NCBI GenBank assembly: GCA_903903635.1
Contig: CAIUZK010000134.1
Location: forward strand, 1-42,613
DNA length: 42,613 nt
Source of the DNA: an uncultured Bacteroidota bacterium
GTDB taxonomy: Bacteria; Bacteroidota; Bacteroidia; Chitinophagales; Chitinophagaceae
Reading direction: 5' to 3'
In this document: positions 7,614 through 29,386 of the stretch, piece by piece
Layout: each line of letters starts with the position of its first letter
How positions within the stretch are numbered: position 1 is the first letter of the stretch
The notes under the pieces: model-generated
What the model was told of the DNA's origin: nothing
Database searches by the model: none
What the model saw: only the letters and a program-made list of their open reading frames with translations
Translations under genes and position numbers: made by a program

Positions 7614-7647
7614 AAGTTTTTATAAATTCGCACAAATTTACGTAATA

Positions 7648-8640: not shown

Positions 8641-8757
8641 TTACCCCAAACCCCTGAAGGGGCTTCACTAAAAAACGAAAATTAAATTTTAATACTAACC
8701 AGAAAATAAACAAAACTCAGCCCCGGAATAGAAAAGCCCCTTCAGGGGTTGGGGTTA
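8641..8757. repeat. CCCCTGAAGGGG-type inverted-repeat element
   Basis: The left arm (8642-8666, TACCCCAAACCCCTGAAGGG and following bases) and the right arm (about 8729-8757, GCCCCTTCAGGGGTTGGGGT and following bases) are near-perfect inverted repeats of about 24 bases around an AT-rich centre of roughly 65 bases. Each arm is itself a hairpin (CCCCTgaAGGGG). Such elements are scattered between genes in many Bacteroidota. This one fills the whole pdhA to TPR-gene spacer: it starts one base after the pdhA stop and ends about 12 bases before the next ATG. As RNA it could act as a terminator or a processing and stability element. Confidence 0.75.
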
Positions 8758-8769
8758 AAAAATCAGATT

Positions 8770-9468
8770 ATGGCAAATTCAGCAAGAAACCAACCCGGAG
8801 TAGAAAGACCTACAAGACAAGAACCTGAAACCGACCCACTGGAAAATGTGCAGGCGCTTTATGAGAAAAACAAAAAAATAATAACTACAGTTGGTACTGT
8901 CGTTATCTCTGTAGTCGTTTTATACTTTGTTTATACCAAGCTTTACAAGGGACCAAACGAAGAAAAAGCAGCTACTGCCCTCTCCTACCCTCAATTATTC
9001 TTTGCTGCCGATTCTCTGAATCTTGCACTGAATGGTGATGGTAAAAACCCGGGCTTCACTAAAATCAAAACAAAATATAGTGGTACTGCCGCAGGAAATC
9101 TCGCTTATTATTATGAAGGGGCATGCTACCTGAAAATGGGTGATTTTAAAAATGCCATCAAGTCCCTTAAAGAATTTAATGGCAAGGGAACTTCTGTTGG
9201 CAATATGGCCGATGGCCTTCTTGGCGAAGCTTACATGGAAGAAAAGGATAACGCTCATGCCATCGAATGTTTCAAAAAAGCAACCAGCAATAAAGAAGAC
9301 AACCTGATTACTCCAATGTTCTTATACCAGTTGGCATTGGCTTACGAAGCATCCAACAACGCTGCTGAAGCTAAAGCCGCTTTCAAACGCATCCGTGATG
9401 AATACCCAAAAAGTATTCAGGCCCGCGATATGGATAAGGAACTTGCCCGCCTTGGCGAATTGAACTAA
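8770..9468 (+). CDS. membrane-anchored TPR-repeat protein (YfgM/BamD-like layout)
   Basis: A 232-residue protein: a cytoplasmic polar N-terminus (1-36), one transmembrane helix (about 37-56, IITTVGTVVISVVVLYFVY) and then a periplasmic region with two to three tetratricopeptide repeats (GNLAYYYEGACYLKMGDFKN, AIECFKKATSNKEDN and MFLYQLALAYEASNNAAEAK). The layout resembles YfgM-type tetratricopeptide proteins involved in envelope protein folding, but the exact role is unknown. The start is the ATG at 8770, just behind the repeat element; the in-frame TTG upstream is inside the repeat. A perfect terminator hairpin follows. Confidence 0.8.
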   Translation: MANSARNQPGVERPTRQEPETDPLENVQALYEKNKKIITTVGTVVISVVVLYFVYTKLYKGPNEEKAATALSYPQLFFAADSLNLALNGDGKNPGFTKIKTKYSGTAAGNLAYYYEGACYLKMGDFKNAIKSLKEFNGKGTSVGNMADGLLGEAYMEEKDNAHAIECFKKATSNKEDNLITPMFLYQLALAYEASNNAAEAKAAFKRIRDEYPKSIQARDMDKELARLGELN

Positions 9469-9496
9469 ATTCTTCATTTTCATTTTTTATAACTTT

Positions 9497-9535
9497 CCCC
9501 TTTTTATCTTTACCGATAAAAAGGGGATTTTTTTT
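9497..9535 (+). terminator. strong hairpin terminator that overlaps the ribH start region
   Basis: CCCCTTTTTATC (9497-9508) and GATAAAAAGGGG (9515-9526) form a perfect 12-base stem with a 6-base loop, followed by eight T residues (9528-9535). The ribH ATG begins at 9536, directly after the T-run. The purine block AAGGGG in the descending stem is also the only possible ribosome-binding site for ribH, and TATCTTTA (9505-9512) inside the hairpin resembles a -7 promoter element. Confidence 0.8.
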
Positions 9536-10045
9536 ATGGCACTATCGCAAAACAGTTTTAGTTTATTGGACACGCACCAACTCGAAACCTTGAAGTTGCC
9601 GAGAGTAGCCATTGTTCATACCGAGTGGAATGATAAAATAGTACGTGAACTTGTAAATGGCTGCGAAGGGATCATTCACCGGTTTTCCGGCGAGATCATC
9701 GAAAACATTGCTGTGCCCGGTTGCTTCGAGTTGCCATTTGCCTGCAAACACCTTTGGGGAAAATGCAAAGACCAGGATGACAAACCCGAGGCTATAATCG
9801 CTTTTGGCGCAGTTATCAGGGGCGGCACACCTCATTTCGAATATGTAAGCAAAGCGGTCACAGACGGCATAGTTCAACTCAACCTTACCCTTCCTGTACC
9901 TGTAATTTTTGGCGTTCTTACCCTTGACAACGAAGACCAGGCCTGGGAAAGACTGGGCGGCGCTCATGGCCATAAAGGTGAGGAAGCTGCGGTAACGGCT
10001 TTAAAAATGATCCGGATAATCAGGGCCTCACAGGGTATTCTGTAA
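9536..10045 (+). CDS. ribH: 6,7-dimethyl-8-ribityllumazine synthase
   Basis: A 169-residue lumazine synthase, the next-to-last enzyme of riboflavin synthesis, which condenses 5-amino-6-ribitylaminouracil with 3,4-dihydroxy-2-butanone 4-phosphate and assembles into pentamers or 60-mers. Visible motifs are VAIVHTEWND, the substrate loop PGCFELPFACK, GAVIRGGTPHFEYVS with the catalytic His, and GVLTLDNEDQAWERLGG near the end. Other rib genes are not nearby. Translation starts at the first base after a terminator T-run, an unusual setting described separately. The convergent sirtuin gene ends two bases beyond its stop. Confidence 0.96.
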   Translation: MALSQNSFSLLDTHQLETLKLPRVAIVHTEWNDKIVRELVNGCEGIIHRFSGEIIENIAVPGCFELPFACKHLWGKCKDQDDKPEAIIAFGAVIRGGTPHFEYVSKAVTDGIVQLNLTLPVPVIFGVLTLDNEDQAWERLGGAHGHKGEEAAVTALKMIRIIRASQGIL

Positions 10046-10918: not shown

Positions 10919-11026
10919 ATGAAAAACGCCATATTGGTTTTTGTGTTTTCTATAGCACTATTTGCAGGTTTGAAGGCTAATTCACAAAGTTGGCAGTGGG
11001 CAAAAGGCACTTCAGGAATTGGTTGA
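10919..11026 (+). pseudogene. beheaded secreted-protein gene (signal peptide plus first residues)
   Basis: ATG at 10919 opens a 35-residue frame: a Sec signal peptide (MKNAILVFVFSIALFAGLKA, then NSQ) followed by SWQWAKGTSGIG and a stop. The residues after the signal match the start of long exported Bacteroidota proteins with repeated W-A-K-x-x-G-G segments, which normally run for hundreds of residues. The frame stops exactly where the repeat beginning GCCGAGTC appears (11033). The simplest reading is that a cell-surface gene was cut by insertion or deletion and only its first 35 codons remain. A short functional peptide is less likely. Confidence 0.6.
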
Positions 11027-11032
11027 GTCCCA

Positions 11033-11100
11033 GCCGAGTCTCAAAAACTATTTCGGCCTAATAAATAGCCCTAAAGTTGATGGACTCGGCGGAAATCAGC
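11033..11100. repeat. GACTCGGC repeat, copy A
   Basis: This stretch begins with GCCGAGTC (11033-11040), ends with the inverted GACTCGGC (11083-11090) plus GGAAATCAGC, and is about 80 percent identical to 11951-12016. The inverted ends make an 8-base stem closing a 42-base loop that itself contains TTTCGGCC. Confidence 0.7.
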
Positions 11101-11404
11101 GTACAGCAACTAAGTCTGACCAATATCCGAGATGAATTACCATAAACGGAAAGCATTTGAAATTGATGTACAATGGAAAAGTACTATCCGGAAAAGTAAG
11201 AGTGAGAATTATGTAAAGTAAGGAAATAAAAGAAATATATGTATTCATGGAACTTCATTATAATTATGGAAGATTAGGCTCAGATCCACATAATTATATT
11301 AATTTACTAGAACTTTGGCTTTGGGAACATTAAGTAATAGGTCCATCAATAAGAACGAGTTATATTTTCATGAATTGAGTTTATAAATATAATAATTAAA
11401 TTAT
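11101..11404. other. AT-rich remnant region with two very short frames
   Basis: There is no recognisable gene. Two short frames have plausible codons: 11132-11221 (29 residues, starting MNYHKRKAFEIDVQW) and 11247-11333 (28 residues, starting MELHYNYGRLGSDPHNY). Both read like tails or middles of broken proteins. With the beheaded gene upstream this looks like decayed accessory DNA, possibly the remains of a surface or toxin-type locus. None is called as a gene. Confidence 0.35.
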
Positions 11405-11809
11405 ATGATTAAGGAGGAAGAATTAGATACAATATTTTACAGTAATGTGTTCCAGGAAATAAATAATGAGATTGCATTAAAGTCAAATTGCAGTGTTGAT
11501 AAATCTCCAATATTGTTTGATATGGTAAAACGAGAAATATTGGATTCTGGAGTATCTCCAGAAAGAATCAAATTCTTCATTCAAAACAAGAGGAAACTGA
11601 TTATTGATTTTGGTATAAAATTTTTGTTATTTAATAATAATAAACCTGATGTGATTGGATGCGGAGCATGCATTACTTATTCGATATATCTTATCTATAT
11701 TGAAGATATGCCGGAAAAATTATTAGAATACATAAATTATAGAAGAATACCGAGAGCGAAAACTGTATTAAAAGAGCTAATGTTGATAATGACTGAAATA
11801 AATAGCTAG
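11405..11809 (+). CDS. hypothetical protein in accessory patch
   Basis: A 134-residue soluble protein starting MIKEEELDTIFYSNVF with a ribosome-binding-like AAGGAGG inside the first codons; the ATG at 11405 follows an AT-rich leader. It is acidic at the N-terminus and basic at the C-terminus (YRRIPRAKTVLKELM), has a short hydrophobic middle (GCGACITYSIYLIYIED), no signal peptide and no recognised domain. Codon use is more AT-rich than in the core genes. Its size and orphan position among broken genes and repeats are what one sees for immunity proteins of lost toxins, but no partner is present, so that is only a guess. Confidence 0.55.
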   Translation: MIKEEELDTIFYSNVFQEINNEIALKSNCSVDKSPILFDMVKREILDSGVSPERIKFFIQNKRKLIIDFGIKFLLFNNNKPDVIGCGACITYSIYLIYIEDMPEKLLEYINYRRIPRAKTVLKELMLIMTEINS

Positions 11810-11852
11810 AAAAAGTATCCCCCCGGGTTGTTCCAGGTCTTCAAAAAATGTT

Positions 11853-11910
11853 GTTCCTTGATGTTAGCGAAGCGCATCAGGAACTGCAAATAATACTCCG
11901 TCTCAGACGG
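11853..11910. repeat. two adjacent hairpins (REP-like)
   Basis: GTTCCTTGATG (11853-11863) pairs with CATCAGGAAC (11875-11884) apart from one bulged T, with loop TTAGCGAAGCG. It is followed by the near-perfect palindrome CCGTCTCAGACGG (11898-11910). The loop text TTAGCGAAG resembles the TTTAGCGAAGG core of the larger inverted-repeat family in this window. Confidence 0.6.
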
Positions 11911-11950
11911 CATTCAAAGAACAAAAGCTTATATAATTGCCTGGCGGGGG

Positions 11951-12075
11951 GCAGTCTCAAAAACTACTTCAGCCTGATAATTAGTCCCAAAGTGACGGAC
12001 TCGGCGACAATCAGGGTGGACAATCAGCGAAATCATACTTCGTGCGCCATAGCTTTTTCAGCGAAGGTGCATAAT
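11951..12075. repeat. GACTCGGC repeat, copy B, joined to an inverted-repeat core fragment
   Basis: 11951-12016 repeats copy A (AGTCTCAAAAACTACTTCAG ... GACGGACTCGGC) with scattered changes and without the left GCCG of the stem. Then 12044-12075 reads GCGCCATAGCTTTTTCAGCG followed by AAGGTGCATAA, a diverged version of the GCCATAGCTTTAGCGAAGGC core found in the four MITE-like copies. The stretch 11810-12150 is thus a mosaic of repeat pieces and holds no gene. Confidence 0.6.
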
Positions 12076-13539: not shown

Positions 13540-14670
13540 ATGAAAAAATTTTTATACTACCTCGTTTTTCTTTTTCTGTTCACAACAACTTCAAACGCCC
13601 AAAAAATTGATACTGTTTCCACATTTTCTATAACAGGTTATGTAGATGGGTATTATGCTTACTATTCAGATTCGGTAGGACCGGGAAATTTCCAGAAGTG
13701 GCCCAATACATCTCCCAGGAACAATAGCCCGTCTTTGAATACGGCTATGCTATCGATGCTGTATAATGCAGAAAAGGTAAGGGCTGCTGCTGTGTTCTCC
13801 TTTGGCGACTTTGCAGCCTGCACCTGGGCGCCGGCTCCATACAACAATGTGATGGAAGCTCATGTAGGCTTTAAGGTAAACAGTAAATTCTGGATAGATG
13901 CGGGAATGTTCAGAACCCACTTCGGTACCGAGTTTCTGCTTCCTGGTGAGAACTTAACCAGTTCCATAACAGTAGGCACATTCTATGAGCCTCCATTTGA
14001 AAGCGGATTGCGCCTCAATTTTGATCCTACCAGGAAACTGGAGATCAATCTTTTTCTGCTGAATGGTTATGGTATGTTTGTTGACAATAACAATCAGAAA
14101 TCATTTGGAGCAGGAGTAACTTATGCTATCAATGATAATACCGGTATAGGTTATACCAACTATATAGGCGATGATAATCCGGTTGCCTACACAGGCCCTG
14201 CCCATCTGAGGATACATCAGAATGCATTTTTGAATTACAAGCATAAAAAGATAACAGTACAGACAGGTATGGATTTCTGTATGCAGCAAAATTCCGACCT
14301 TCAGTCAGGTACTGAAAGCGCTACCATGTGGAGTGCCCTGGCAACCTTAAAATATCAGGCAGCTAAAAGGTGTGCCGTATATGGCAGAGCAGAAGTATTC
14401 AGCGATCCTAATGGTATTATGTCAGGTGTTCTTCTTGACAAAACCGGAAAACTCACAGGGTATAAACTTTGGGGCGCTACAGCAGGCCTGGAATACAAAC
14501 CAACTGAAGAATCATATATCAGGCTTGAAAGTCGGTTAATAGCAATGGATAAGGACCAGTATATTTTCATCAACAATGGCACATCCGACAATAAACGAAT
14601 TGAAGTTATGCTTAATGCCGGTGTAACTTTTGACCTGCTGAAAAGTTTTGCAACCAGGAAAAGCGAATAA
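13540..14670 (+). CDS. outer-membrane beta-barrel porin (OmpL/bbp2-like)
   Basis: A 376-residue protein with a clear Sec signal peptide (1-21, ending TTTSNAQ) and then a barrel rich in alternating aromatic strands (YVDGYYAYYSD, AAVFSFGDFA, FWIDAGMFRTHFGTE, YGRAEVFSD), ending with a terminal strand (VMLNAGVTFDLL). G-Y-V-D-x-Y-Y and AGMFRTHFG are typical of the putative beta-barrel porin-2 family of Bacteroidota. The ATG at 13540 is the start; the TTG one codon earlier is unlikely. The ammonium transporter gene follows 99 bases later on the same strand, suggesting this porin admits ammonium or small nitrogen compounds. The promoter lies on the far side of repeat copy 2. Confidence 0.83.
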   Translation: MKKFLYYLVFLFLFTTTSNAQKIDTVSTFSITGYVDGYYAYYSDSVGPGNFQKWPNTSPRNNSPSLNTAMLSMLYNAEKVRAAAVFSFGDFAACTWAPAPYNNVMEAHVGFKVNSKFWIDAGMFRTHFGTEFLLPGENLTSSITVGTFYEPPFESGLRLNFDPTRKLEINLFLLNGYGMFVDNNNQKSFGAGVTYAINDNTGIGYTNYIGDDNPVAYTGPAHLRIHQNAFLNYKHKKITVQTGMDFCMQQNSDLQSGTESATMWSALATLKYQAAKRCAVYGRAEVFSDPNGIMSGVLLDKTGKLTGYKLWGATAGLEYKPTEESYIRLESRLIAMDKDQYIFINNGTSDNKRIEVMLNAGVTFDLLKSFATRKSE

Positions 14671-14769
14671 GCTGAATTGATCGTAATACCCATTATCTTA
14701 GTACCATAGTTAATCAGTTATAAAGAATTTTAAACAAATACATTTTTAACCTGAAAAAAAATACCAATC

Positions 14770-15999
14770 ATGCCAAACTTTGATACCGGCTCAACGGGCT
14801 TTATGCTCCTTGCCACAAGTCTTGTAATGTTAATGACCCCCGGGCTCGCATTCTTTTATGGAGGTCTGGCGGGCAAACGAAACATTCTGGGTATTATGAT
14901 CCAGAGTTTTGTATCAATGGGAATTACCACCATTATGTGGTACATCTGCGGTTATTCGCTCTGTTTCAGCGGCAATGAGCTGGGTGGAGTAATAGGTGAT
15001 TTTCATAAGTGTTTCATGCAGGGTGTGGATCTGAATACCCCATTCCCCGGCAACAATAAAATGCCGGAGTTCGTATTCTTTGCTTACCAGATGATGTTTG
15101 CCATCATCACACCAGCGCTTATTACCGGAGCCTTTATCAACCGTATTACCTTTAAGGCTTACCTGGTATTCCTGGTGGTTTGGCAGGTCCTGGTGTACTA
15201 CCCGTTTGCCCATATGATCTGGGGTAATGGTCTTTTGTACCAGTGGGGTGTACGCGACTTTGCCGGTGGTATTGTAGTTCATGCCACAGCAGGATTTGCA
15301 GCCCTTGCATCAGTAATTTATGTAGGTAAACGCCGCGACAGAGAATCACCACCTAATAGTATTCCATTGATAGCTATAGGTACAGGGCTCTTATGGTTTG
15401 GCTGGTATGGGTTCAATGCAGGTAGCGAACTTGATGTAGATGCTATTACAGCCCAGGCGTTTATCAATACCGATGTTGCCGCTTCATTTGCTGCTATTAC
15501 CTGGCTGGCTATTGAGTGGAGCCTGGTTAAGAAACCAAAATTTGTAGGCCTGCTTACCGGTGCTGTTGCCGGATTGGCAACCATTACACCTGCGGCAGGA
15601 TATGTTACACTTAGTTCGGCGGTATCTATTGGTATTGCATCGGGTGCGGTATGCTATCTCGCTGTATCGCTCAAGAACCGTATGGGCTGGGATGACGCCC
15701 TGGACGTTTGGGGTGTACATGGCGTAGGTGGATGCCTGGGAACTATACTTCTTGGTGTATTTGGATCAAAACTTGTTAATGCTACGGGTGCTGATGGATT
15801 GATAAATGGCGGCGGCACATTCTTTATTCACCAGTGTATTGCAGTGGTTGGAGCATGTATTTATGCGTTCGTTTTCACATATGGTATGCTGGCCGTGATC
15901 AACTTCATTACCAAGGTGAAGGTGCATGAAGAGGATGAAAATGCCGGACTTGATGCATCCATACATGGCGAGCAGGCATATGATGCAGGAGTGGTATAA
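14770..15999 (+). CDS. amt: ammonium transporter, Amt/MEP/Rh family
   Basis: A 409-residue inner-membrane protein with about eleven transmembrane helices. DTGSTGFMLLATSLVMLMTP opens the first helix; the twin pore histidines lie in GGIVVHATAGFAALA and DVWGVHGVGGCLGTILLGVF; FGWYGFNAGSEL and AGLATITPAAGYV are further family motifs. The C-terminal cytoplasmic tail (KVKVHEEDENAGLDASIHGE) carries the region that PII proteins contact. No glnK/glnB gene lies beside it, which is unusual; the porin upstream takes that place. A GC-rich terminator follows. Confidence 0.96.
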   Translation: MPNFDTGSTGFMLLATSLVMLMTPGLAFFYGGLAGKRNILGIMIQSFVSMGITTIMWYICGYSLCFSGNELGGVIGDFHKCFMQGVDLNTPFPGNNKMPEFVFFAYQMMFAIITPALITGAFINRITFKAYLVFLVVWQVLVYYPFAHMIWGNGLLYQWGVRDFAGGIVVHATAGFAALASVIYVGKRRDRESPPNSIPLIAIGTGLLWFGWYGFNAGSELDVDAITAQAFINTDVAASFAAITWLAIEWSLVKKPKFVGLLTGAVAGLATITPAAGYVTLSSAVSIGIASGAVCYLAVSLKNRMGWDDALDVWGVHGVGGCLGTILLGVFGSKLVNATGADGLINGGGTFFIHQCIAVVGACIYAFVFTYGMLAVINFITKVKVHEEDENAGLDASIHGEQAYDAGVV

Positions 16000-16023
16000 A
16001 TCTTAAGTCTATAAATTGTCAGG

Positions 16024-16051
16024 CAACCCCGGGATTTTCCGGGGTTGTTTA
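16024..16051 (+). terminator. terminator after amt
   Basis: CAACCCCGG (16024-16032) pairs perfectly with CCGGGGTTG (16039-16047), with a 6-base loop and a following TTTAGTTT. Confidence 0.8.
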
Positions 16052-16173
16052 GTTTAGCAACAATACCTTATGAATTTGTCAATCAATAGAAGTATTCGTG
16101 TACATGTGATTAGTAAAAAAAATCAAACAGAGGGGACTGAAAAAGCAGATTCAAAAACAGACATAAATTAAAA

Positions 16174-16860
16174 TCACTTATCAATCTTAAAATAATCGTA
16201 GAAATAGTCGGGATGCTTCAGGTTGATCCAGGATGCTCTGCTCTTTTCAAAATCTTCATAGGTAAAGGCTTCGATTTCCTTTTGGCTGAAATTCAGAACC
16301 TGATCCGGAACTCCCCTGGTTATTATACCCAAACCATGATCGGCATCGAGTACAAAAACATTGAGGTCTTTACGGTGGCATTGCAGGTGTAATATTGCCT
16401 TCCATACATCCCCGTTCCAGAAACGGCTGTAATTCCCTTCGGCATATTCCTTGTATGAGCTGGCGGCTTCTTTGGTCTGCGGATTACAATCGTGCACCAC
16501 TATAACACCATTATCAGACATGTAATTGAGTGTGTTCTCTATATCTCTAAGGGCAAAATCATATTCATGCATGCCGTCAATAAGTATCAATTCGGGTTTC
16601 TTATTTTCGAAAACCCGTTTAGCATTTTTCAGAAAAAAGTCGTCACTGGTAGTCTCGAAATACCGATTAAATACGTTGTAGGGATTAACAAAAAGCTTTC
16701 CCATTACCCTCATTTTATCGAATGCAAAACTGGGGTCTACAGCAACTTTAAATGAACTTTTGATCCGGAAAAAAACATGGCCGTTTGAAACGCCAACCTC
16801 CAGGTAATTGTTTAATTTTTTGCTCTTCATGAGCGATTTGATAACATCTAATCTCTTCAT
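16174..16860 (-). CDS. class I SAM-dependent methyltransferase (Methyltransf_24-like)
   Basis: A 228-residue protein. NNYLEVGVSNGHVFFRI (about 17-33) is motif I binding S-adenosylmethionine; VAVDPSF is motif II; PELILIDGMHEYDFALRDIE and GVIVVHDCNP are the later motifs of the Methyltransf_24 group, whose members often act on sugars or surface polymers (macrocin-methyltransferase-like). The substrate is unknown. It stands alone, convergent with amt, so the context gives no substrate hint. The ATG at 16860 gives a normal length. Confidence 0.82.
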   Translation of the reverse strand: MKRLDVIKSLMKSKKLNNYLEVGVSNGHVFFRIKSSFKVAVDPSFAFDKMRVMGKLFVNPYNVFNRYFETTSDDFFLKNAKRVFENKKPELILIDGMHEYDFALRDIENTLNYMSDNGVIVVHDCNPQTKEAASSYKEYAEGNYSRFWNGDVWKAILHLQCHRKDLNVFVLDADHGLGIITRGVPDQVLNFSQKEIEAFTYEDFEKSRASWINLKHPDYFYDYFKIDK

Positions 16861-16992
16861 ATGGTTTATAGATTGGGCCGAAAGTAATGAAAAAAAATAA
16901 TTGGCGGTTATAAATGTTTAGCTATATAAATTATTCAAATTCAGAATAATTGAAATAAAAAGCTTACCTTTTGCAACATTTCAAAATAAAGT

Positions 16993-17214
16993 ATGGAGAT
17001 AGCACAGGATCTGTTGAAGAAAATAAACATTATGCCGGAACGTTTTCCGAATTCAAATAACAGCAAATGGATACGGATACATATGCTTAATGGTAAGACC
17101 TGCCTGGGGTATTATAATTTCAAAGAAGAGTCATGGCGCGAATTCAATGACATACTGAATCTGCACAATACCTCCATACTCAATGCCAAAATGATCAAGG
17201 GCTGGCATTATTAG
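16993..17214 (+). CDS. small hypothetical protein
   Basis: A 73-residue soluble protein starting MEIAQDLLKKINIMPERFPN; the stretch WIRIHMLNGKTCLGYYNFKE is beta-rich, and it ends IKGWHY. No signal peptide, membrane segment or recognised family. A TTTTGCAACA region just upstream resembles a Bacteroidota promoter. Codon use and position between two well-separated genes favour a real gene, function unknown. Confidence 0.6.
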   Translation: MEIAQDLLKKINIMPERFPNSNNSKWIRIHMLNGKTCLGYYNFKEESWREFNDILNLHNTSILNAKMIKGWHY

Positions 17215-17255
17215 TCAGAGGTTCTGAAAACGAGTTCCAATAATACTATTTCATT

Positions 17256-18911
17256 CTATCTGTCTCCGTAGTGCTTATAGTTGGCAATTTCGGTTATTGG
17301 CTTTCCTATGCATCCGTTTGGCGTCTGTATATGAAGTAATGCTGCAAGGGTTGCAGAGATATCAGTCATATTGTAAGGGTTATTGGTCTCCCCTTTTGGT
17401 ATGTGCCAGCCGTACCATAGCAATGGGATATGTGTGTCGTAAGGATTCCAACTGCCGTGTGTCATACCGGTGGTTTTACCTCCATTTTCATACCATCCCG
17501 GATTGAGCACCATTTGAATTATGCCACTTCTGTTTTTGTTGTACCCATTTACAGCCATTTGTTTAATTGGTTCAGGTACAGGTGTACCATCCATATTGTC
17601 CATATCAATCACATAAGCAACCTCAGGCCGTTTATTGAGCCAATCCATTATTACTTTCTTCACATTGGCTATTTGCATCCCCGATTTAGCCAGTTTATTA
17701 TAATTGATAAATACCTGGTAGTTTGCAAGGCCCTGAATTAATGAATCTACCCCCAGATTTTTTTTAAGATATTCATTTAAATCAGCTCCGAATGCACCTG
17801 AAAGTACACCAGCAGGTACATCCAGGTCAGAAAGAAACGTGGTATTATGTGCGCCGCCATGGTCGGCAGATAAAAAGAACAAGTAGTTATCCCTGCCATA
17901 ACGTTCGTCAAGATACCTGAGCAGCGATGCGATCTCGAGGTCGAGCCGCAGATAACAATCTTCGATCTCTATTGAATTCGGGGCAAACTGGTGGCCGATA
18001 TAATCTGTACTTGATAAGCTAATAGCCATAAAATCGGTTTCATTCCCCTTCCCCATCGCTTCACCTTCCATACATGCTTTTGCCATCATGATAGAATAGG
18101 TGTTGCCTGCAGGCATGGATTTAAGTACAGCATAGCGATCTGAATCGGCAAGGGTATCAAATACATGTGGGAATACGGGCGCTTTCTCGCTTTTAAATGC
18201 CTTTTCGTAGTTACTGGCATCAACAGTGCTTTGAATGTATTTATCGGCCGGATAAAGGAGTCTCCAGCCAAGCTTAACCAGGCTGTCGCCAGCTTTTCTT
18301 TTATTGAATGCCTGCAGCCATGCCGGGTTCTGGTTTGGATAATAAGAACTGGTGGTAAAGCCTCCTGTTTTATCGCTGTACCAATAAGCGGCATTCGCCA
18401 GGTGGCCTCCCGGCAGAATACTGCCCCTGTCTTTAATAGCCACCCCATATACTTTTGAACGTAGATTGGTAGCTAGTTTCAATTCATCGGTAATAGTTGT
18501 GGTGAGCAAATTTGCAGGGCTATAGGAAGGCGCTTTAGATTCATCGCCAACCAGATGTACATTTTTGTCATCTACACAATATACATTCTGGCCAGACTGG
18601 TTATCTATCCAGTTATTGCCTGCAATACCATGAATAGACGGTACAGAGCCGGTATAAATACAGGTATGGCCGGGAGCCGTATTGGCCGGAATGTAATTGA
18701 TGGAAGTATTCTGGCAATTATAACCATGCTTCAGCAGGCGACGGAAGCCATCTTTGCCATACAGATCGTAATAGCGGTACAGATAATCCCAGCGCATCTG
18801 GTCAACAACAAGACCAACAACGATTTTTGGTCTTTCCACACTATCCTGCTTGTGTACACAGGAAGACAAACCCACTATTAACAAAACAATAAACAGCTTT
18901 ACACCCCTCAT
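17256..18911 (-). CDS. pafA: alkaline phosphatase PafA, lipoprotein
   Basis: A 551-residue alkaline-phosphatase-superfamily enzyme. The signal ends in the lipobox LSSC (Cys18), so it is an outer-membrane or periplasmic lipoprotein. Zinc and catalytic motifs: VVDQMRWDY, nucleophile Thr in NTAPGHTCIYTG, SSTDYIGHQFAP, SADHGGAHN and GMTHGSWNPYDTHIPLLWYG. K and R in IKDRGSILPGG match the Lys/Arg pair that PafA of Elizabethkingia uses for phosphate monoesters, so it should be a broad phosphomonoesterase that releases phosphate from sugar and lipid phosphates. No phosphate-uptake genes are nearby. Confidence 0.92.
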   Translation of the reverse strand: MRGVKLFIVLLIVGLSSCVHKQDSVERPKIVVGLVVDQMRWDYLYRYYDLYGKDGFRRLLKHGYNCQNTSINYIPANTAPGHTCIYTGSVPSIHGIAGNNWIDNQSGQNVYCVDDKNVHLVGDESKAPSYSPANLLTTTITDELKLATNLRSKVYGVAIKDRGSILPGGHLANAAYWYSDKTGGFTTSSYYPNQNPAWLQAFNKRKAGDSLVKLGWRLLYPADKYIQSTVDASNYEKAFKSEKAPVFPHVFDTLADSDRYAVLKSMPAGNTYSIMMAKACMEGEAMGKGNETDFMAISLSSTDYIGHQFAPNSIEIEDCYLRLDLEIASLLRYLDERYGRDNYLFFLSADHGGAHNTTFLSDLDVPAGVLSGAFGADLNEYLKKNLGVDSLIQGLANYQVFINYNKLAKSGMQIANVKKVIMDWLNKRPEVAYVIDMDNMDGTPVPEPIKQMAVNGYNKNRSGIIQMVLNPGWYENGGKTTGMTHGSWNPYDTHIPLLWYGWHIPKGETNNPYNMTDISATLAALLHIQTPNGCIGKPITEIANYKHYGDR

Positions 18912-20518: not shown

Positions 20519-20615
20519 ATTTAGGGTTTAGGCACAATTAAAGATTATGCATGTAGCTTGGTATTGGAATCTTATCTGTAGCCAATAACACAATGTGGAT
20601 TATCCAATTTGTTCG

Positions 20616-20623
20616 TATCTTTA
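20616..20623 (+). promoter_or_regulatory. -7 element before the STAND gene
   Basis: TATCTTTA, one base off TAnnTTTG, 31 bases before the ATG at 20654. No good TTG lies at the right distance. It overlaps the alternative upstream TTG start (20609), which makes that start unlikely. Confidence 0.4.
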
Positions 20624-20653
20624 TATAGACCAAAAAAAGTAAGAATATCACTT

Positions 20654-23600
20654 ATGACTAAACTCCAAGAAATTGAAAACAAACTTTTATCTGTAAACGA
20701 TGCGGTTTTTCAAAATGTTTGCGATGCATATTTATTTTATACAGAACCAAATTTCCAAGACATTAATCGGACAGGAAGCCAAAAAGGAAAACAAAAAACA
20801 ACCAAAGGAACTCCCGACACATTTTTCACATTGCCAAATGGGAAATATATTTTAGTTGAGTACACAACTAAGTCAAATAAAAAAAACGAAAAGGCGTTTT
20901 TAGATAAGGTTATTGAGGATCTTGATAAATGTTTGAATGAAAATGAAACTGGCATAAAGCATTCTGAAATAAGTAAGATAATCTACTGTTTTAATACCAC
21001 CATTAGCCTTGAAAATTCGAATCTCCTAAAAGAATATTGCAGAAAACAAAATGTAAAATTAGAACTAAAGGGAATCGATACGCTAGCTCTTGGGCTACTA
21101 GGTAGATGTGTTTATGTTGCCAAAGAATTTTTAGGAATCACTATTGATACCGGACAAATACTTCCTCCAAATGTTTTTATAGCCGAATATGAATCTTCTG
21201 GATTTGCAACAAAATTATCGAATGCCTTTCACTTTAGAAATGATGAGTTAAACCAGCTAATTAATTCAATTAATAATGAGCGAATTACAATTCTTACCGG
21301 GCCTCCAGGAATTGGGAAATCAAGGCTGGCATTGGCAGCATTAGAGTGTAGTAAGCAAAAAATATCTTCTAGCAATATACTATGTATCTCAAACAAAAAT
21401 GCGCCTATTCATGACGATCTTAGATCTCGTATCCTAGAAGACTTAGACTATCTGATATTTATTGATGATGCAAATAGGCAACAAACTAATTTGCGACAAG
21501 TATTGTATTTATTAAAGGAGAAACGTAATGGTAAAATTCACATTATCATTACCGTTAGAGACTATGCATTTGAAGAGATTTCTGCTTTATGCAATGACTT
21601 TAATCCAACTATTATTTCTCTTAATAAATTCACAGATGAGCAGTTAGAAAACATTTTGAAAAGTAAAGATTTCGGGAATCTAAATAACACATGTATTAAG
21701 CGAGTCCTTGAAATAGCGGACGGTAATCCTAGGTTAGCAATGATGTCGGCAACTGTGGCGCTTGAAAAAAACAACCTAGCAGAGTTAGATAATGTATCGA
21801 CTATCTATGACAAGTATTTCAGGTCTTCTATCGCTGATCAGACTCTTTTTTCAAATGTCCCATTACTAAAAACACTGGGGGTACTTTCTTTTTTTTACAC
21901 TATAAATTTTGAAGATGAAGTTTTTTGCAATAATCTATATCGCTTGTTCGATATTGATGCCTATATGTTCAGGGAGTCACTAGAAAAATTAGATCGCCTC
22001 GAATTAATAGAATCATCTTCTGATTTTATGGTTGTGAAAATTTCGGAACAAGTTTTATCAACATACTTTTTTTACAAGACCTTTCTTCTAGATAAATCAT
22101 TAGATTTTACTATCTTACTTGATAATTATTTTGATAACTATTCTTACAGAATCAGAGATACTGTAATTCCTGCAAATAATACATTTTCTTTTGAAAATGT
22201 TTATCAAAAAATAGATCCTTATCTGTCTGATTTTTGGAGAAAAAACTCAGGAAGTGAAAAAGCAATTTTGAAATTTTTAGACCTTTTTTGGTTTTATCGT
22301 TCAGATAACGTCTTTGACTTTATTTATAATAAAATCAAGTCGTTACCCATTTTGGAAAATGTCGTATACGTTTTTAGCGATGAAAATTCATCAAACCTAT
22401 ATTCTACCAAAGATGAATATCTGGAACTTCTTTTCAATTTTTTCCAATATCCTCAAGTAACTCTGCTTCCTTCATTAGAATTAAGTTTTGATTATGTAAA
22501 GAAGGTTCCAAGTAATTATTCGGTATTAGTGAAAAAAATTAAAAGTAGTTTTATTATTTCAGAAGACGATGCAAGACTTGACTATTATCGTCAAAATGAA
22601 CTCTTACATTACCTTAAAAAAAATAGCGATAGTGGAGATAGCATTTATATTTCTACCTTATTTCTTATTGCTCCAGAATTACTAAAAACAAATTTAAACA
22701 TCGTTTCCGGTGGTCGAAAGAGAGGTACTATATCTTGGTATAGATATAAACTTCCGACAAACGAAATCATTAAAAATTACAGAAAAAATATTTGGACGTT
22801 AATAATAGCGAATTTCAGAAATAATTCACAAGAAAGTGAAGAGTTCCTCCAAAAGTATTTGACTGACATACATGATGGAGTGAAGGATCTAATAGAATTT
22901 GATTTAAAGTTTGTATTGATTTTTTTTGGAAAAGTTTTGGATAAAAAGAAATTCTCGCATTGTTTTCTAGTTCAAAAATTTCTAAAAGTATACAATGGTT
23001 ATAAAATAAAACATACTGGATTCCAAAAGCTGAAAATAAAATTCATTGGAGAATCTTATAGAATATTTAATGTTCTAACTTTCGATATGTTGCATGGGAA
23101 AGATGATGAAGATTTTATATTATTGCCTTACGATGAATACCAAAAAAAGAAGGAATTAGAAATAAAAAAATCGATTGTATTTAAGTCAGTTAGCGATTTT
23201 AGAATTTTCTACAAAATCTATGTCGAATTGTTTCTTTGGAATAAAAGTAATATTAGTTATTCATTTGATATAATATTAGGCGAAAACACTATAAATAACC
23301 CTGATCTAGGTTTAAAAATACTAAAAGAAATACTTAATACATGCAATCAAACGAATTATGTTCCTTGGAGACCTTTCGAATTTTATATTCAAAATAACTC
23401 CTCCAAGATGTGCGTGAATTTATACAAGACTTTTATTAATATAGACTTCAAACAAAAAGCCTGGTGGGTTTTGAATATGATCCACTTCCTACCCAAAGAA
23501 CTAATTACAATCGATAAATCCAACGATTTTACTCAATTACTTAAAGACAGACAATTAGACACATGTGTTGATTTTGCTTTTCTTATTAAATTAGTTCCTG

Positions 23601-24415
23601 TCAACCCATTAATTTTTTCAGAAGTACTAGAAATTATAAAAGACAAGAATATTGAAGGAAAGTATCGGTTCACAATGAATTACGACTTTTTTGATAAATA
23701 CATACAATATTGCCATAATAATATTGATTTATTAAAAACGACCTATTTACAACAGGACAAATTGACTCCTCACTATGATTTCAACTTTAATCAATTTTTT
23801 AAAATATTAAAACTTGACAATAGTTTCCTGCTTGAGTATATAAAAGAAATTACAGAGGATAGATTTTCATTAAGTTCCAGGGAAAGTAGATATCTATCGA
23901 AAATATGGCAATTAGAAAATGGACAGGAACTTTTTTTAGAAGTTTTCGAATATCTAATCAGTAAAAACCTTTACTCTGTTGATGAACACATATGCGGATC
24001 GTTCTTTTCAGATCTGGACGAATCTTCCAAATCAAAAGCGTTTAATTTCTTAAAAAATCTATTGTTCCAGAATAAAAGAGATGTGAAAATTACTCAGGTT
24101 ATCATTTATATTGTCCGGCATATTTTTTATAACGAATATGAAGGTCTCCTATTATACTTTCTATCCATTAATGATGATATTGAACAATTCAAGCAAATAC
24201 CTTTTTTTGATAACCATTTTATGAGCGATGGAACGGTAAACTGGTATGATGTTAGAGCGGAAGAACTAAATAAAATCCTCAATATACTCAATAAAATAAA
24301 AGAAAAATCGTATAGATATTCCTCGCATAAAGTCTATATTAAAGAACGAATAGATGATGAGAAAAGGTTTGCTGACCATGAACGGAAGAGGAATTTTCTT
24401 GAAAGTAACTTTTGA
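20654..24415 (+). CDS. STAND NTPase with N-terminal PD-(D/E)XK-like nuclease domain (Avs/nSTAND3-type defence protein)
   Basis: 1253 residues in three parts. (1) Residues 1-165: a restriction-endonuclease-like domain, with KGTPDTFFTLPNGKYILVEY (51-70) giving D55 and E69 of a PD-(D/E)XK site, but T71 where the classical Lys would be. (2) About 195-480: a STAND NTPase with Walker A GPPGIGKS (216-223), Walker B YLIFIDDAN (266-274), TVRDY (300-304) and the GxP-type motif GNPRLA (357-362). (3) About 480-1253: a long helical region without recognised repeats, the usual place of the sensor. In Avs-type proteins the C-terminus binds a phage protein and the oligomerised NTPase activates the nuclease. 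The gene is much more AT-rich than its neighbours, stands alone and is followed by a HigBA pair, as in a transferred defence insert. The family is well supported; anti-phage function is inferred. Confidence 0.85.
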   Translation: MTKLQEIENKLLSVNDAVFQNVCDAYLFYTEPNFQDINRTGSQKGKQKTTKGTPDTFFTLPNGKYILVEYTTKSNKKNEKAFLDKVIEDLDKCLNENETGIKHSEISKIIYCFNTTISLENSNLLKEYCRKQNVKLELKGIDTLALGLLGRCVYVAKEFLGITIDTGQILPPNVFIAEYESSGFATKLSNAFHFRNDELNQLINSINNERITILTGPPGIGKSRLALAALECSKQKISSSNILCISNKNAPIHDDLRSRILEDLDYLIFIDDANRQQTNLRQVLYLLKEKRNGKIHIIITVRDYAFEEISALCNDFNPTIISLNKFTDEQLENILKSKDFGNLNNTCIKRVLEIADGNPRLAMMSATVALEKNNLAELDNVSTIYDKYFRSSIADQTLFSNVPLLKTLGVLSFFYTINFEDEVFCNNLYRLFDIDAYMFRESLEKLDRLELIESSSDFMVVKISEQVLSTYFFYKTFLLDKSLDFTILLDNYFDNYSYRIRDTVIPANNTFSFENVYQKIDPYLSDFWRKNSGSEKAILKFLDLFWFYRSDNVFDFIYNKIKSLPILENVVYVFSDENSSNLYSTKDEYLELLFNFFQYPQVTLLPSLELSFDYVKKVPSNYSVLVKKIKSSFIISEDDARLDYYRQNELLHYLKKNSDSGDSIYISTLFLIAPELLKTNLNIVSGGRKRGTISWYRYKLPTNEIIKNYRKNIWTLIIANFRNNSQESEEFLQKYLTDIHDGVKDLIEFDLKFVLIFFGKVLDKKKFSHCFLVQKFLKVYNGYKIKHTGFQKLKIKFIGESYRIFNVLTFDMLHGKDDEDFILLPYDEYQKKKELEIKKSIVFKSVSDFRIFYKIYVELFLWNKSNISYSFDIILGENTINNPDLGLKILKEILNTCNQTNYVPWRPFEFYIQNNSSKMCVNLYKTFINIDFKQKAWWVLNMIHFLPKELITIDKSNDFTQLLKDRQLDTCVDFAFLIKLVPVNPLIFSEVLEIIKDKNIEGKYRFTMNYDFFDKYIQYCHNNIDLLKTTYLQQDKLTPHYDFNFNQFFKILKLDNSFLLEYIKEITEDRFSLSSRESRYLSKIWQLENGQELFLEVFEYLISKNLYSVDEHICGSFFSDLDESSKSKAFNFLKNLLFQNKRDVKITQVIIYIVRHIFYNEYEGLLLYFLSINDDIEQFKQIPFFDNHFMSDGTVNWYDVRAEELNKILNILNKIKEKSYRYSSHKVYIKERIDDEKRFADHERKRNFLESNF

Positions 24416-24444
24416 GAATAAGTCCGCCCATTTTAAAATTTCCT

Positions 24445-24475
24445 TTGCAACCTGTCACGTTTAGCGTTACATTTG
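24445..24475 (+). promoter_or_regulatory. promoter of higBA
   Basis: TTG (24445-24447), 20 bases, TACATTTG (24468-24475): a full consensus match. Transcription would start at about 24480, the very base of the GTG start codon of higB. Confidence 0.75.
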
Positions 24476-24479
24476 TATT

Positions 24480-24758
24480 GTGATCGTTTCTTTCAGACAT
24501 AAGGGCCTAAAACTTTATTACGATAAGGGGGATAGCTCTAAACTGCAGCCGCAGCATGTAGGTAAAATACGACTGATACTTACCCGTTTGGACGCGTGTT
24601 CTACGGCAGCGGAGATGCAGGTTCCGGGATATGATTTGCATGCGCTTTCGGGCAATCTGAAGAATTTCTGGTCGGTAAAGGTAAATGGCAATTACAGGAT
24701 CATTTTCAGGTTTGAAGGAGACAATGTATTTGATGTAGATTATTTAGATTACCATTAA
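24480..24758 (+). CDS. higB: HigB-family toxin (RelE superfamily)
   Basis: A 92-residue protein that fits the HigB/plasmid-maintenance killer family end to end: FRHKGLKLYYDKGD, H-V-G-K-I-R-L-I-L-T-R-L-D-A, MQVPGYDLHALSGN, W-S-V-K-V-N-G-N-Y-R-I-I-F-R-F and the closing VDYLDYH. HigB toxins cut mRNA on the ribosome. The start is a GTG; no ATG is available, and a full promoter ends four bases before it, so the message may be leaderless. higA follows after 10 bases, in the usual toxin-first order. Its base composition is close to that of the core genes, unlike the STAND gene before it. Confidence 0.92.
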   Translation: MIVSFRHKGLKLYYDKGDSSKLQPQHVGKIRLILTRLDACSTAAEMQVPGYDLHALSGNLKNFWSVKVNGNYRIIFRFEGDNVFDVDYLDYH

Positions 24759-24768
24759 AAACCAGCAT

Positions 24769-25080
24769 ATGGCGATGTTTAATCCAGCCCATCCGGGCGA
24801 ACTGATAAGAGAAACAATTGAGGCGCTTCGGGAAGAGTCGGGGAAGCCTTATACTATACAGGAAATTGCAGATGGCTTGCTAACCACCCGCAAAACACTA
24901 TCAGCTATTATCAATGGTAAGCAATCTGTAACAACAGAAATGGCCATTAAGCTTGCTGCTGCTTTTAAAAATACAACACCTGAATTCTGGCTCCAGGCCC
25001 AGTCCAATTATGATCTGGCCGCAGCAAGGCGCATTACTGATACCAAGGGAATTACTGTATTCTGGAAGCCTGCTGCTTAA
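24769..25080 (+). CDS. higA: HigA-family antitoxin (XRE helix-turn-helix)
   Basis: 103 residues. The N-terminus MAMFNPAHPGELIRETIEAL is the HigA signature; the helix-turn-helix is IQEIADGLLTTRKTLSAIIN (about 28-47), followed by GKQSVTTEMAIKLAAAF and TPEFWLQAQSNYDL. HigA binds and silences HigB and represses the shared promoter. The gene is 10 bases behind higB and clearly its partner. An RmlD-like gene starts 62 bases after its stop without an obvious promoter and may receive read-through. Confidence 0.93.
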   Translation: MAMFNPAHPGELIRETIEALREESGKPYTIQEIADGLLTTRKTLSAIINGKQSVTTEMAIKLAAAFKNTTPEFWLQAQSNYDLAAARRITDTKGITVFWKPAA

Positions 25081-25142
25081 AGGCAATTGAAACAAACTTG
25101 AGTCCATTTATTAATTTTAGCCTACAATATCAATTCAAAAAC

Positions 25143-26021
25143 ATGAAAGTATTTATATCCGGTGCATCCGGGCTGGTTGGGGGAAATTGTTTGAAACATT
25201 TTAAGGAGCAGGGTTGGGAAACTGTGGGTTCCTATTTTTCGTTTGAGACCGATGATACTGTATTCTACGATACACTGAACCAGGACCATCCGTATAATTT
25301 CAATGTGGCTGAGTTTAAGCCTGATGTGATCGTGCATTGCGGCGCACTTACCCATGTGGACTATTGTGAAGATCATGTGCAGGAGAGTTATGAAAAAACT
25401 GTGCAGAGCACCATCAACCTCATTAAACTGGCCAATGAATGCAAGGCCCGCATGGTATACATCTCTACCGACTATGTATATGATGGCGTGAATGGCCCTT
25501 ACAGGGAAGATGCTCCATTCAATCCGTTAAGTGTGTATGCACGGCATAAGCTGGAAGCAGAACAACTGGTGATGAGGGATATTGCCAATCCGCTGGTGAT
25601 GAGGGTAACCAATGTGTATGGCAATGAGCTGAGAGGAAAAAACTTTGTTGCCCGCATTATTGACCAATGCAGAAACAATCAAAAACTGACATTAAAACTA
25701 CCTTACGATCAGTATGCCTCTCCCGTTAATGCATGGGATATAGCACGGGCTATGTATCTGCTGCTCAGGGATGGTAAAAGCGGTATCTACAACATGGGTG
25801 GAACAGATTATGTAAACCGTGTGGAACTGGCGTTGCGTGTGCTGAGCTACTTCCCGGATGCGGAATATGACCTGATACCCATAAGCACGGAGGCCATGAA
25901 GCAGCCAGCCGCAAGACCATTACTTGGCGGATTTGTGAAAATGAAATTCAGTAATGAATACCCTGAGTTTTTGTTTGGGAATATAGATAGTTATGTAAAG
26001 GAAGTTATTTCACGATCTTAA
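25143..26021 (+). CDS. RmlD-like NAD(P)-dependent sugar reductase
   Basis: A 292-residue short-chain dehydrogenase starting MKVFISGASGLVGGNCL (Rossmann glycine motif at 7-13). VDYCEDH, YISTDYVYDG and the catalytic Y-x-x-x-K in VYARHKLEAE match the RmlD substrate-binding family (dTDP-4-dehydrorhamnose reductase). No other dTDP-rhamnose genes (rmlA, B, C) are nearby, so it could serve another sugar or act in an unlinked pathway. The start is the ATG at 25143; a longer frame from TTG 25098 lacks support. The last 12 bases overlap the end of the convergent PolX-family gene. Confidence 0.83.
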   Translation: MKVFISGASGLVGGNCLKHFKEQGWETVGSYFSFETDDTVFYDTLNQDHPYNFNVAEFKPDVIVHCGALTHVDYCEDHVQESYEKTVQSTINLIKLANECKARMVYISTDYVYDGVNGPYREDAPFNPLSVYARHKLEAEQLVMRDIANPLVMRVTNVYGNELRGKNFVARIIDQCRNNQKLTLKLPYDQYASPVNAWDIARAMYLLLRDGKSGIYNMGGTDYVNRVELALRVLSYFPDAEYDLIPISTEAMKQPAARPLLGGFVKMKFSNEYPEFLFGNIDSYVKEVISRS

Positions 26022-27851: not shown

Positions 27852-28367
27852 TCAATTTGTCGAGTTATAGCGTAAGGTCTTAATCCAAACGTTTTTTTGA
27901 AGGTATTTCATTAGGGGGCCATTTGAATAATATCTACCAGTATTCAAGAAATAAAAATCACCTGAAAAACTACTACAAATAATTCTTAATGATTTCCCGT
28001 TAGCATAGAGTTCAAAGTGTAAACGGACATCAATACCATTTATCCCTCGATCAATACCATCATTAAAAAAAGAAAACAGGCTATCGTAAACAGCAAATTC
28101 TTTCGACCCTTTTTCTAAAACAATTTGCTTCTTTATATCTTTAAATATCCATTTAAAAGATTCGCAACTCACAGTGGCAATTGTGCCCAGACCCGGCTCA
28201 TCAACATAATCAATCACAATCTTATCGCATCTTGCTGTATCATTAAAAATACTGACCTTTCTTATACTATCAGCCATCACTTCTGCAATCCTATCCTTAC
28301 GAGGATTAATATTATTGCATTGCGCAAAGAACATTAAAATAAGCAATGTGGCAATGGTGTATTTCAT
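27852..28367 (-). CDS. putative lipoprotein, unknown function
   Basis: A 171-residue protein starting MKYTIATLLILMFFAQCNN: a short signal with lipobox FAQC (Cys17), then a polar domain rich in beta strands (CDKIVIDYVDE, GTIATVSCESFKWIF, GIDVRLHFELYANGKSLRII, GDFYFLNTG). No family recognised. A frame extends 11 codons upstream but has no signal-like start, so the ATG at 28367 is used. It is convergent with nothing and divergent from the gene at 28931, with a repeat copy between them. Confidence 0.7.
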   Translation of the reverse strand: MKYTIATLLILMFFAQCNNINPRKDRIAEVMADSIRKVSIFNDTARCDKIVIDYVDEPGLGTIATVSCESFKWIFKDIKKQIVLEKGSKEFAVYDSLFSFFNDGIDRGINGIDVRLHFELYANGKSLRIICSSFSGDFYFLNTGRYYSNGPLMKYLQKNVWIKTLRYNSTN

Positions 28368-28475
28368 GCAGAATAGTTCAACTGGAAAATGCAAAAACAA
28401 TATACAATAATCACCAATAATAATCTCCGGAATTTTTACCCACCATCTTCGAAAATCCCGATTTCAAATTCCCTT

Positions 28476-28556
28476 AGGAACGTTGATGAAATAACTTCCA
28501 CAAAATAGCTCTCATTTCAATACAAAAGATGCGGAAGTTATTTTGAAAGCTTCACT
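28476..28556. repeat. inverted-repeat (MITE-like) element, copy 3, 81-base miniature
   Basis: The left arm AGGAACGTTGATGAAATAAC, continuing TTCCAC, and the right arm (28531-28556, GCGGAAGTTATTTTGAAAGC, continuing TTCACT) are inverted copies; AAATAACTTCC/GGAAGTTATTT is an exact 11-base pair. Only about 29 bases of unrelated sequence separate the arms. All internal landmarks of the larger copies are missing, so this is a solo pair of ends. Confidence 0.7.
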
Positions 28557-28587
28557 TACCATAATTATATAATTTAATCTGTGAAAA

Positions 28588-28860
28588 TTATTTTGTCCCA
28601 ATTCCTAAGCCCATCAGTAGCAGGAGCGTATATCTATATTCATCCCATTTTTGCGGCAATAATTTCAGTAACATTTGCCGGAGAAAAATAACCCGGATAA
28701 AATTATTGGCAACCATACTGATCTTTACCGGCGTATACATGGTCAGTTTTGGATTCCGCAGAAAAAACACCATTTCACCTGATATTATTATGCCTGAATA
28801 GATTTTCGGGAGGCAACTCCTCCTCTTTTCCCATTTCCCATACCCCCAAATAATTTCCAT
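28588..28860 (-). CDS. doubtful small frame, possibly a gene remnant
   Basis: A 90-codon frame on the minus strand ending LLLLMGLGIGTK, with a hydrophobic, basic middle (VANNFIRVIFLRQMLLKLLP). It has no signal peptide, no known family and no promoter seen; the N-terminal third reads unlike protein. It may be the decayed end of a membrane protein or chance. The spacer 28401-28930 otherwise holds only repeat copy 3. Confidence 0.2.
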   Translation of the reverse strand: MEIIWGYGKWEKRRSCLPKIYSGIIISGEMVFFLRNPKLTMYTPVKISMVANNFIRVIFLRQMLLKLLPQKWDEYRYTLLLLMGLGIGTK

Positions 28861-28930
28861 ACCATTTTACACCATAAATGTTTAAAATACAAAAGAAAAT
28901 ATTATCTTGCATTTCTAAATTGTAAACAAT

Positions 28931-29386
28931 ATGAAACAACTACTATTAATTCTATGCATGGGCTTTACCGTAAACTCTTCTTTCGCCCAGGAAAGATCTC
29001 TTCAGCACGCCATTCAGGACAAACACCACAATGTTGTTGCCTATATCAAAAATGGGGTTGTTACGAGTGCCGGCAACCAATTTCTGGGTGAATTTAAACC
29101 AGTCAATGGCGAATTGTCAATTACCGACAAAAACCATACTGTTATCGGCTACCTGGCACAAGGAAAAAATGTGCTTGATGCAAATCATAAAATGCTAGGC
29201 TCAATAAACAGCGATGGCAAGGGCACTACTACAGTTTCCGTTTTGGATGCCGGCAATAATAAAATAGGATCAATTAATTTCGAAACCGGTGTTGTTACCG
29301 ATAAAATGGTCAACCTCATAGGTTATGAAATGGATACGGAAGTAATGTGGGCTGCGCCTTACTTTTTCTTCTTTAAATTCCAATAA
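28931..29386 (+). CDS. secreted protein of short beta repeats (5-fold beta-flower-like)
   Basis: 151 residues with a Sec signal peptide (1-19, ending SSFAQ). The mature part is made of about five repeats of 20-25 residues with the pattern h-x-D-x-x-x-x-h-x-G-x-h-x-x-G: HNVVAYIKNGVVTSAGNQFL, HTVIGYLAQGKNVLDANHKM, NKIGSINFETGVVTDKMVNL. This regular pattern fits the small Bacteroidota beta-flower proteins. The C-terminus PYFFFFKFQ ends in aromatic residues and carries no T9SS domain, so it is likely periplasmic or outer-membrane-associated. The function is unknown. A strong terminator follows. Confidence 0.72.
   Translation: MKQLLLILCMGFTVNSSFAQERSLQHAIQDKHHNVVAYIKNGVVTSAGNQFLGEFKPVNGELSITDKNHTVIGYLAQGKNVLDANHKMLGSINSDGKGTTTVSVLDAGNNKIGSINFETGVVTDKMVNLIGYEMDTEVMWAAPYFFFFKFQ

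Follow-up and report, generated by a model that had tools for sequence, protein, structure and literature searches.

We found that a 1253-aa protein encoded in a 42,613-nt contig from an uncultured member of the Chitinophagaceae (the whole stretch, hereafter the window) is likely a mobile STAND protein that acts against phage, Avs-like in design and of a type that is not named in the libraries used. It belongs to none of the Avs models in those libraries, and the family around it carries no name in Pfam, NCBIfam or PADLOC; no publication describing this family was recognised among literature listings and the opening lines of abstracts, with most subscription journals lying outside the search. 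By analogy with the sensor-switch-effector receptors drawn on for comparison (Avs protein function, PMC12931631), the window protein probably works like an Avs-type receptor, with a sensor, a STAND switch and a nuclease. What is new is the family, the position of a lysine in its nuclease domain and an optional membrane module.

The open reading frame covers 20609–24415 on the forward strand, and an ATG at 20654 opens the nuclease-STAND gene (20654..24415, +) of 1253 codons for amino acids in the window translation. The first ~165 residues (20654..21148, +) form a predicted PD-(D/E)XK-like nuclease domain, and an nSTAND3 NTPase domain follows at residues 195–337 (21236..21664, +), which Pfam recognised at 30.2 bits (cut-off 27.2) and which bears out the STAND NTPase named in an earlier, sequence-only reading of this DNA. 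Besides nSTAND3, no Pfam family scored above its own cut-off in the 1253-aa protein. The Walker A motif GPPGIGKS (residues 216–223, including K222; 21299..21322, +) and the GNPRLA motif (residues 357–362; 21722..21739, +) lie where that reading had placed them, as do D55, E69 and T71, by both translation and alignment; G357, N358, R360 and A362 are kept in 54/54 rows of the family alignment. Residues 480–1253 (22091..24412, +) make up the presumed sensor, a C-terminal region without a family match. The predicted model of residues 170–1253 has fair confidence (mean pLDDT 83.8), and in it the ~770 residues after the NTPase are mostly helical, as had been proposed. Protein and profile searches (Pfam, NCBIfam, PADLOC, PDB sequences) gave nothing usable outside the NTPase. 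The broad Avs-like design of an N-terminal effector, a central STAND NTPase and a C-terminal helical region is present in one protein, in which the NTPase is given by the nSTAND3 match and the rest is predicted. Since full-length relatives occur across many phyla, chance is excluded as the source of the nuclease-STAND architecture.

The PD-(D/E)XK core fold is present in the predicted N-terminal domain, together with both acids of the superfamily, D55 in the PD motif (codon 20816..20818, +) and E69 in the (D/E)xK motif, each in 54/54 rows. At the canonical lysine position, the family has T in 30/54 and S in 24/54 rows. The codons of E69, Y70, T71 and T72 (20858..20869, +) therefore spell E-x-[ST]-T instead of E-x-K, with E and the second T in 54/54 rows, so that the exchange of Lys for Thr, taken earlier as a private change of the window protein, is in fact a family rule. 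A further lysine, K85 (codon 20906..20908, +; helix 79–94), is the candidate for a relocated catalytic lysine; its family equivalent stands 10–16 residues past E69, on the next helix of the predicted structure, and D55, E69, T/S71, T72 and K85 are kept together in all 54 intact family rows of the alignment. Lysines on the helix after the acids are known within the PD-(D/E)XK superfamily, including active enzymes, and the lysine of the Hantaan and influenza endonucleases comes from a helix (PMC4909276). Because K85 sits on the next helix, a relocation of the catalytic lysine is probable, as in the hantavirus and influenza endonucleases, with K85 replacing the missing ExK lysine by analogy. The different nuclease chemistry that the sequence-only reading drew from the Thr does not follow, since the invariant K85 could take the missing lysine's part.

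The same arrangement raises the possibility of an effector that targets RNA or single strands, with an active site like that of the cap-snatching endonucleases of segmented negative-strand RNA viruses, which have an acidic PD and E and a lysine on the following helix (Hantaan and influenza; PMC4909276). The family's PD, E-x-[ST] and helix lysine 10–16 residues on resemble the spacings of 14 residues in Hantaan (E110/K124) and 13 in Lassa (E102/K115) given in the same source, and the Pfam family L_protein_N weakly matched 17/44 nuclease domains (best E 2.1e-4), with the window domain under the cut-off. In contrast, the best fold matches of the nuclease domain are DNA restriction enzymes and Avs4, with Avs4 at the top in VIA, while an arenavirus endonuclease reached only E 0.03 and probability 0.28. 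The likeness is one of layout, with no reliable sequence or fold match between the cap-snatching endonucleases and the nuclease domain, and may reflect the shared superfamily alone, and we consider action on RNA or single strands unlikely.

Full-length relatives of the window protein were found at 59 or more loci in species genomes and in 13 Leptospira plasmid records. The 59 loci were collected with two peptide patterns, which makes them a lower bound, and include two apparent repeats (L041 of L002 and L051 of L003). They are distributed over Bacteroidota (41), Bacillota (5), Pseudomonadota (4), Ignavibacteriota (3) and one each of Altimarinota, Planctomycetota, Fidelibacterota and Cyanobacteriota, with 2 unlabelled; counting Leptospira, nine phyla are represented, some of them by one metagenome contig. 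Identity to the window protein is 26–37% (41 rows), and the 54 intact rows are 1220–1286 aa long, most of them 1238–1246 aa, with the value of 1220 hinging on the choice of start. Broken copies are also present: 6/59 carry stops or frame changes (L043, L046, L052, L062, L064, L070), and the Leptospira copy L011 is split by IS1501. Among 395 genomes drawn evenly from the class, a near full-length match was seen in 4 (the window's own genome included) and any match in 29, and most of the other matches cover the NTPase alone. In a quick tree, the rows of Bacillota, Ignavibacteriota, Stenoxybacter (Pseudomonadota) and Leptospira fall among those of Bacteroidota, and the labelled rows require 6 changes of phylum label; support is weak at several forks, and the branch leading to the window row is long. 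No relatives were found in phage records, nor in viral contigs with two peptide patterns.

The gene is AT-rich relative to its surroundings, as the sequence-only reading had stated. Its GC content is 0.297, compared to 0.465 and 0.444 in the flanking genes and 0.406 in the window, and falls to 27.9% over residues 481–1253. The 414-aa gene on the upstream flank, which looks ligase-like by eye, is present in 30/35 genomes of the genus. Among 24 downstream stretches retrieved from congeneric genomes, some of them short, the downstream flanking gene (reductase/epimerase-like by eye) begins 96–400 bases past the upstream one in 6, lies 4.0 and 9.2 kb on in 2, and falls outside the stretch in 16. 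No match to the nuclease-STAND gene or to the HigBA-like pair behind it was found in any of the 24. As the two flanking genes are adjacent in six congeneric genomes, the nuclease-STAND gene and the HigBA-like pair behind it came in on an insert. Its approximate extent is 20522..25104 (no strand assigned): similarity to two empty sites (L109/L110) stops at ~20521, after a common terminator-like stretch, and resumes at 25105–25143. By sequence comparison, the gene and the pair sit on ~4.6 kb of foreign DNA. Four of the 35 congeneric genomes (G000–G034) show the nuclease-STAND gene: it is intact in G000 and G027, present as a stop-containing fragment at a contig end in G003, and present as a remnant of the C-terminal part in G020. 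The domain order, the conserved residues of the NTPase and the nuclease, the predicted nuclease fold and the insertion into a core locus are all observed features.

As for the HigBA pair reported to follow the gene, its antitoxin was confirmed as HigA (103 aa; 24769..25080, +; TIGR02607, 74.0 bits, cut-off 47.7), while the toxin match is a weaker one: the 92-aa RelE/HigB-like gene (24480..24758, +) has RelE/StbE as its best match at 23.8 bits, below the cut-off of 27.9. The pair has a GC content of 43.8%. It was rejected as a partner, in that no HigA or HigB relative (ORFs of at least 80 aa) was seen beside the other 65 loci; among the 66 loci it adjoins the window copy only, sharing the insert without being a conserved partner.

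A neighbourhood survey of homologues for defence islands had been suggested from the sequence. We used 66 loci (the 59, six from Leptospira and the window) with 882 neighbouring ORFs, and found a defence gene within 3 kb in at least 16/58 loci; the seeds of this count were picked by eye near the gene, so that only the figure of at least 16/58 stands. Within 3 kb, the genes that PADLOC or Pfam confirmed include a type III restriction enzyme (L020), a ResIII helicase (L035), AbiEii (L059), a type I methylase (L062), HsdR (L068), MmeI (L030), IetS (L037, with a relative in L045), TmtA (L042), TIR-NB-ARC (L052) and GmrSD (L065). Also confirmed at this distance are the Gabija-type GajB (L029, with a relative in L058), an OLD/GajA-like ATPase (L032) and, in L028, a C5 methylase; L016 has a weak match to Mrr_cat_2. 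Farther out, the seeded count gave 2/56 loci at 3–6 kb and 1/52 beyond; hits other than the seeds themselves numbered 5, 2 and 1 over the three distances. An unbiased PADLOC comparison of the nearest 140 of 263 ORFs (at least 120 aa, within 3 kb, reaching 1254 bases) with 140 of 215 ORFs beyond 6 kb returned 159 families near vs 150 far, which by itself shows no enrichment. This statistic is uninformative because one protein matches many models; among the first 25 PADLOC families listed, up to 4 members were near and 1 far, and GajA models matched in 3/140 near ORFs. The survey thus gave defence genes near part of the homologues, but the window copy is surrounded by core genes, outside any defence island, and no defence hotspot was seen at its site in the 11 stretches (of 24 fetched) whose ORFs were read by eye. 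The setting of the family is mobile, patchy and often defence-rich. The patchy cross-phylum spread with broken copies and the known defence genes near part of the loci are likewise observed.

A role in competition between plasmids or mobile elements, or in their maintenance, would leave phage defence aside. This possibility draws on the 13 Leptospira plasmid records, with parA/parB-type genes adjoining the copy in those read, on recombinase-like genes near several copies, and on the HigBA-like pair on the window's insert. A recombinase cluster was found in 9 loci, up to several kb off, with its L028 member matching Phage_integrase, and a serine-recombinase-like cluster (by eye) in 6 loci, also up to several kb away. 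However, most copies found come from contigs that are either chromosome-size or unassigned, and some of them have restriction, Gabija, AbiE or IetS genes nearby; plasmid exclusion and phage defence can also coincide as one function. We assign such a role a low probability.

PADLOC and NCBIfam include models of Avs1, Avs2 and Avs3, and the Avs4 models were confirmed to be present in both. In agreement with the earlier proposal of an Avs-like effector-STAND-sensor design outside the described types, none of the Avs models in these libraries was matched by the protein or by the family profile. Avs5 (SIR2-STAND; PDB 9jap) has a SIR2 effector, whereas that of the window protein is nuclease-like: the nSTAND3 NTPase is present and SIR2 is absent (no Pfam SIR2 match). 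Avs3 (PDB 8dgc) shares the broad design. The function of Avs proteins was reportedly described by Gao et al. 2022.

Avs4 (AVAST type 4; NF041815, PDLC02169, PDB 8dgf) is close in design, also joining a nuclease, a STAND NTPase and a helical C-terminus in one protein, and the window protein could be a distant offshoot of a described Avs type, likeliest Avs4, sensing the same ligand as that type (phage portal protein). VIA places Avs4 first for the nuclease domain, Foldseek puts it at ranks 1 and 2 for the non-nuclease part (TM 0.21–0.26; Avs3 is at rank 4), and the NTPase profiles align. Against this, the protein did not match NF041815 (cut-off 1500 bits) or PDLC02169 at E up to 1, and there were 0 Avs4 matches across the window's genome. 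The profile-profile alignment with Avs4 was limited to the NTPase surroundings, at 97%, and left the C-terminal part unaligned; the nuclease domain alone gave no alignment to an Avs4 profile of 3 rows only. Solved Avs3 and Avs4 chains gave no sequence match to the window protein. The Avs4 rows have Q-x-K by eye where the family has E-x-[ST]-T and the helix lysine, and Avs4 is ~1560–1580 aa long vs 1253 aa. For the C-terminal half, TM-scores of the fold matches are low (0.18–0.26), and exportins and clamp loaders are among those that score. For residues 170–1253, Avs3 and Avs4 were absent among the 50 VIA matches listed, and ClpA, Cdc6, clamp loaders and plant NLRs were level with EfAvs5, so VIA decides no kinship. 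Membership of a described Avs type is thus quite improbable. A nuclease domain that has lost catalysis and is used for binding or assembly only is most improbable: the ExK lysine is missing in 54/54 rows, but T72, K85 and both acids are retained in 54/54 at 26–37% identity, as they would hardly be in a dead domain, and active enzymes of related fold are known to carry their lysine on a helix (PMC4909276).

For the preferred reading of an Avs-like anti-phage protein, the C-terminal helical region would bind a phage product, upon which the STAND NTPase would change its nucleotide state and oligomerise. Oligomerisation would gather the N-terminal PD-(D/E)XK domains, nucleic acid would be cut, and infection would be stopped at the cell's cost. 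Ligand sensing, oligomerisation, cleavage, phage protection and the replacement of the ExK lysine by K85 are steps that we infer. If the protein is protective, a widely spread type would be added to the bacterial NLR-like receptors, and its near-constant length over several phyla suggests a single conserved trigger. The invariant helix lysine lets one ask if the active site of an immune nuclease was rebuilt, and if its substrate changed as a result.

The gene had been described as a single-gene system, which holds for the window copy, without the membrane module, but not throughout the family, as 8/59 loci (L018, L028, L038, L039, L040, L044, L049, L063) have a tightly coupled membrane module. 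Directly upstream of the nuclease-STAND gene, with a gap of −7 to +8 bases, these loci encode a protein of 236–260 aa with a hydrophobic N-terminal helix and a Nuc_deoxyrib_tr-like domain (26.1 bits in one member, cut-off 28.8), preceded in 7/8 by a small hydrophobic protein. The presence of the module requires 6 changes on the tree, at least 4 on well-supported branches, which shows that it was gained or lost several times. It would show how a one-gene system acquires a second effector. A bolder and rather doubtful extension is a STAND immune family of at least nine phyla with a trigger other than those of Avs1–5 and a lysine-relocated nuclease that perhaps acts on RNA or single strands, joined in some hosts by a membrane-anchored deoxyribosyltransferase-like second effector to form a two-effector alarm.

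Two other STAND proteins (L007:13881-17672 and L154:1231-4080) have a nuclease-like N-terminus and a STAND P-loop as in the family but, unlike the family, a Q-x-K lysine (by eye). The family profile missed the L007 gene and matched the L154 gene over positions 99–448. On the Leptospira plasmid pLiSL2, the next gene encodes another protein that, by eye, has a STAND P-loop and is nuclease-like at its N-terminus, with Q-x-K; Pfam gave no match for it.

In eight of the stretches from other genomes and plasmids that carry the family gene (L018, L028, L038, L039, L040, L044, L049 and L063), a tightly coupled gene lies immediately upstream of it. The protein of this upstream module combines a hydrophobic N-terminal helix with a deoxyribosyltransferase-like domain at the 8 loci, and at 7 of the 8 a small hydrophobic protein is encoded ahead of it.

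Large proteins are also encoded next to the family gene. On the Leptospira plasmid pLiSL2 (L007), the gene immediately 3′ of it (13881-17672, + strand) encodes a protein of 1264 aa for which a Pfam scan gave no match; by eye, its N-terminus is nuclease-like with Q-x-K, and its STAND P-loop reads GLSGVGKT. In Kordia algicida (L047), the family gene starts 57 bases downstream of a gene for a 1283-aa protein (6093-9941, + strand), in which neither a Pfam match nor a P-loop pattern was found. L015 (4586-4840) and L020 (13692-14021, + strand) each have a short ORF that shares bases with the family gene at its 3′ end; the L020 ORF contains the P-loop GKWGSGKT, and from its sequence it looks like a truncated part of another NTPase.

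Inspection by eye revealed one more nuclease-like STAND protein with Q-x-K in the comparison stretch L154 (1231-4080, + strand), and the gene directly 5′ of it resembles a restriction-modification subunit. Two further comparison stretches, both from Bacteroidia, encode Avs4-like proteins of 1689 aa (L131, 733-5799, + strand) and 1683 aa (L132, 1483-6531, - strand), which score 583 and 515 bits, respectively, against the Avs4 profile (cut-off 1500). In both, the match begins only past about the first 140 profile positions, and judging by sequence these proteins are possibly a further variant.

One Leptospira copy of the family gene (L011, 7873-12829, + strand) is disrupted in nature, being interrupted near residue 57 by the IS3-type element IS1501. 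The window itself has two more AT-rich kilobases, at 11001-12000 (GC 0.329) and 28001-29000 (GC 0.342).
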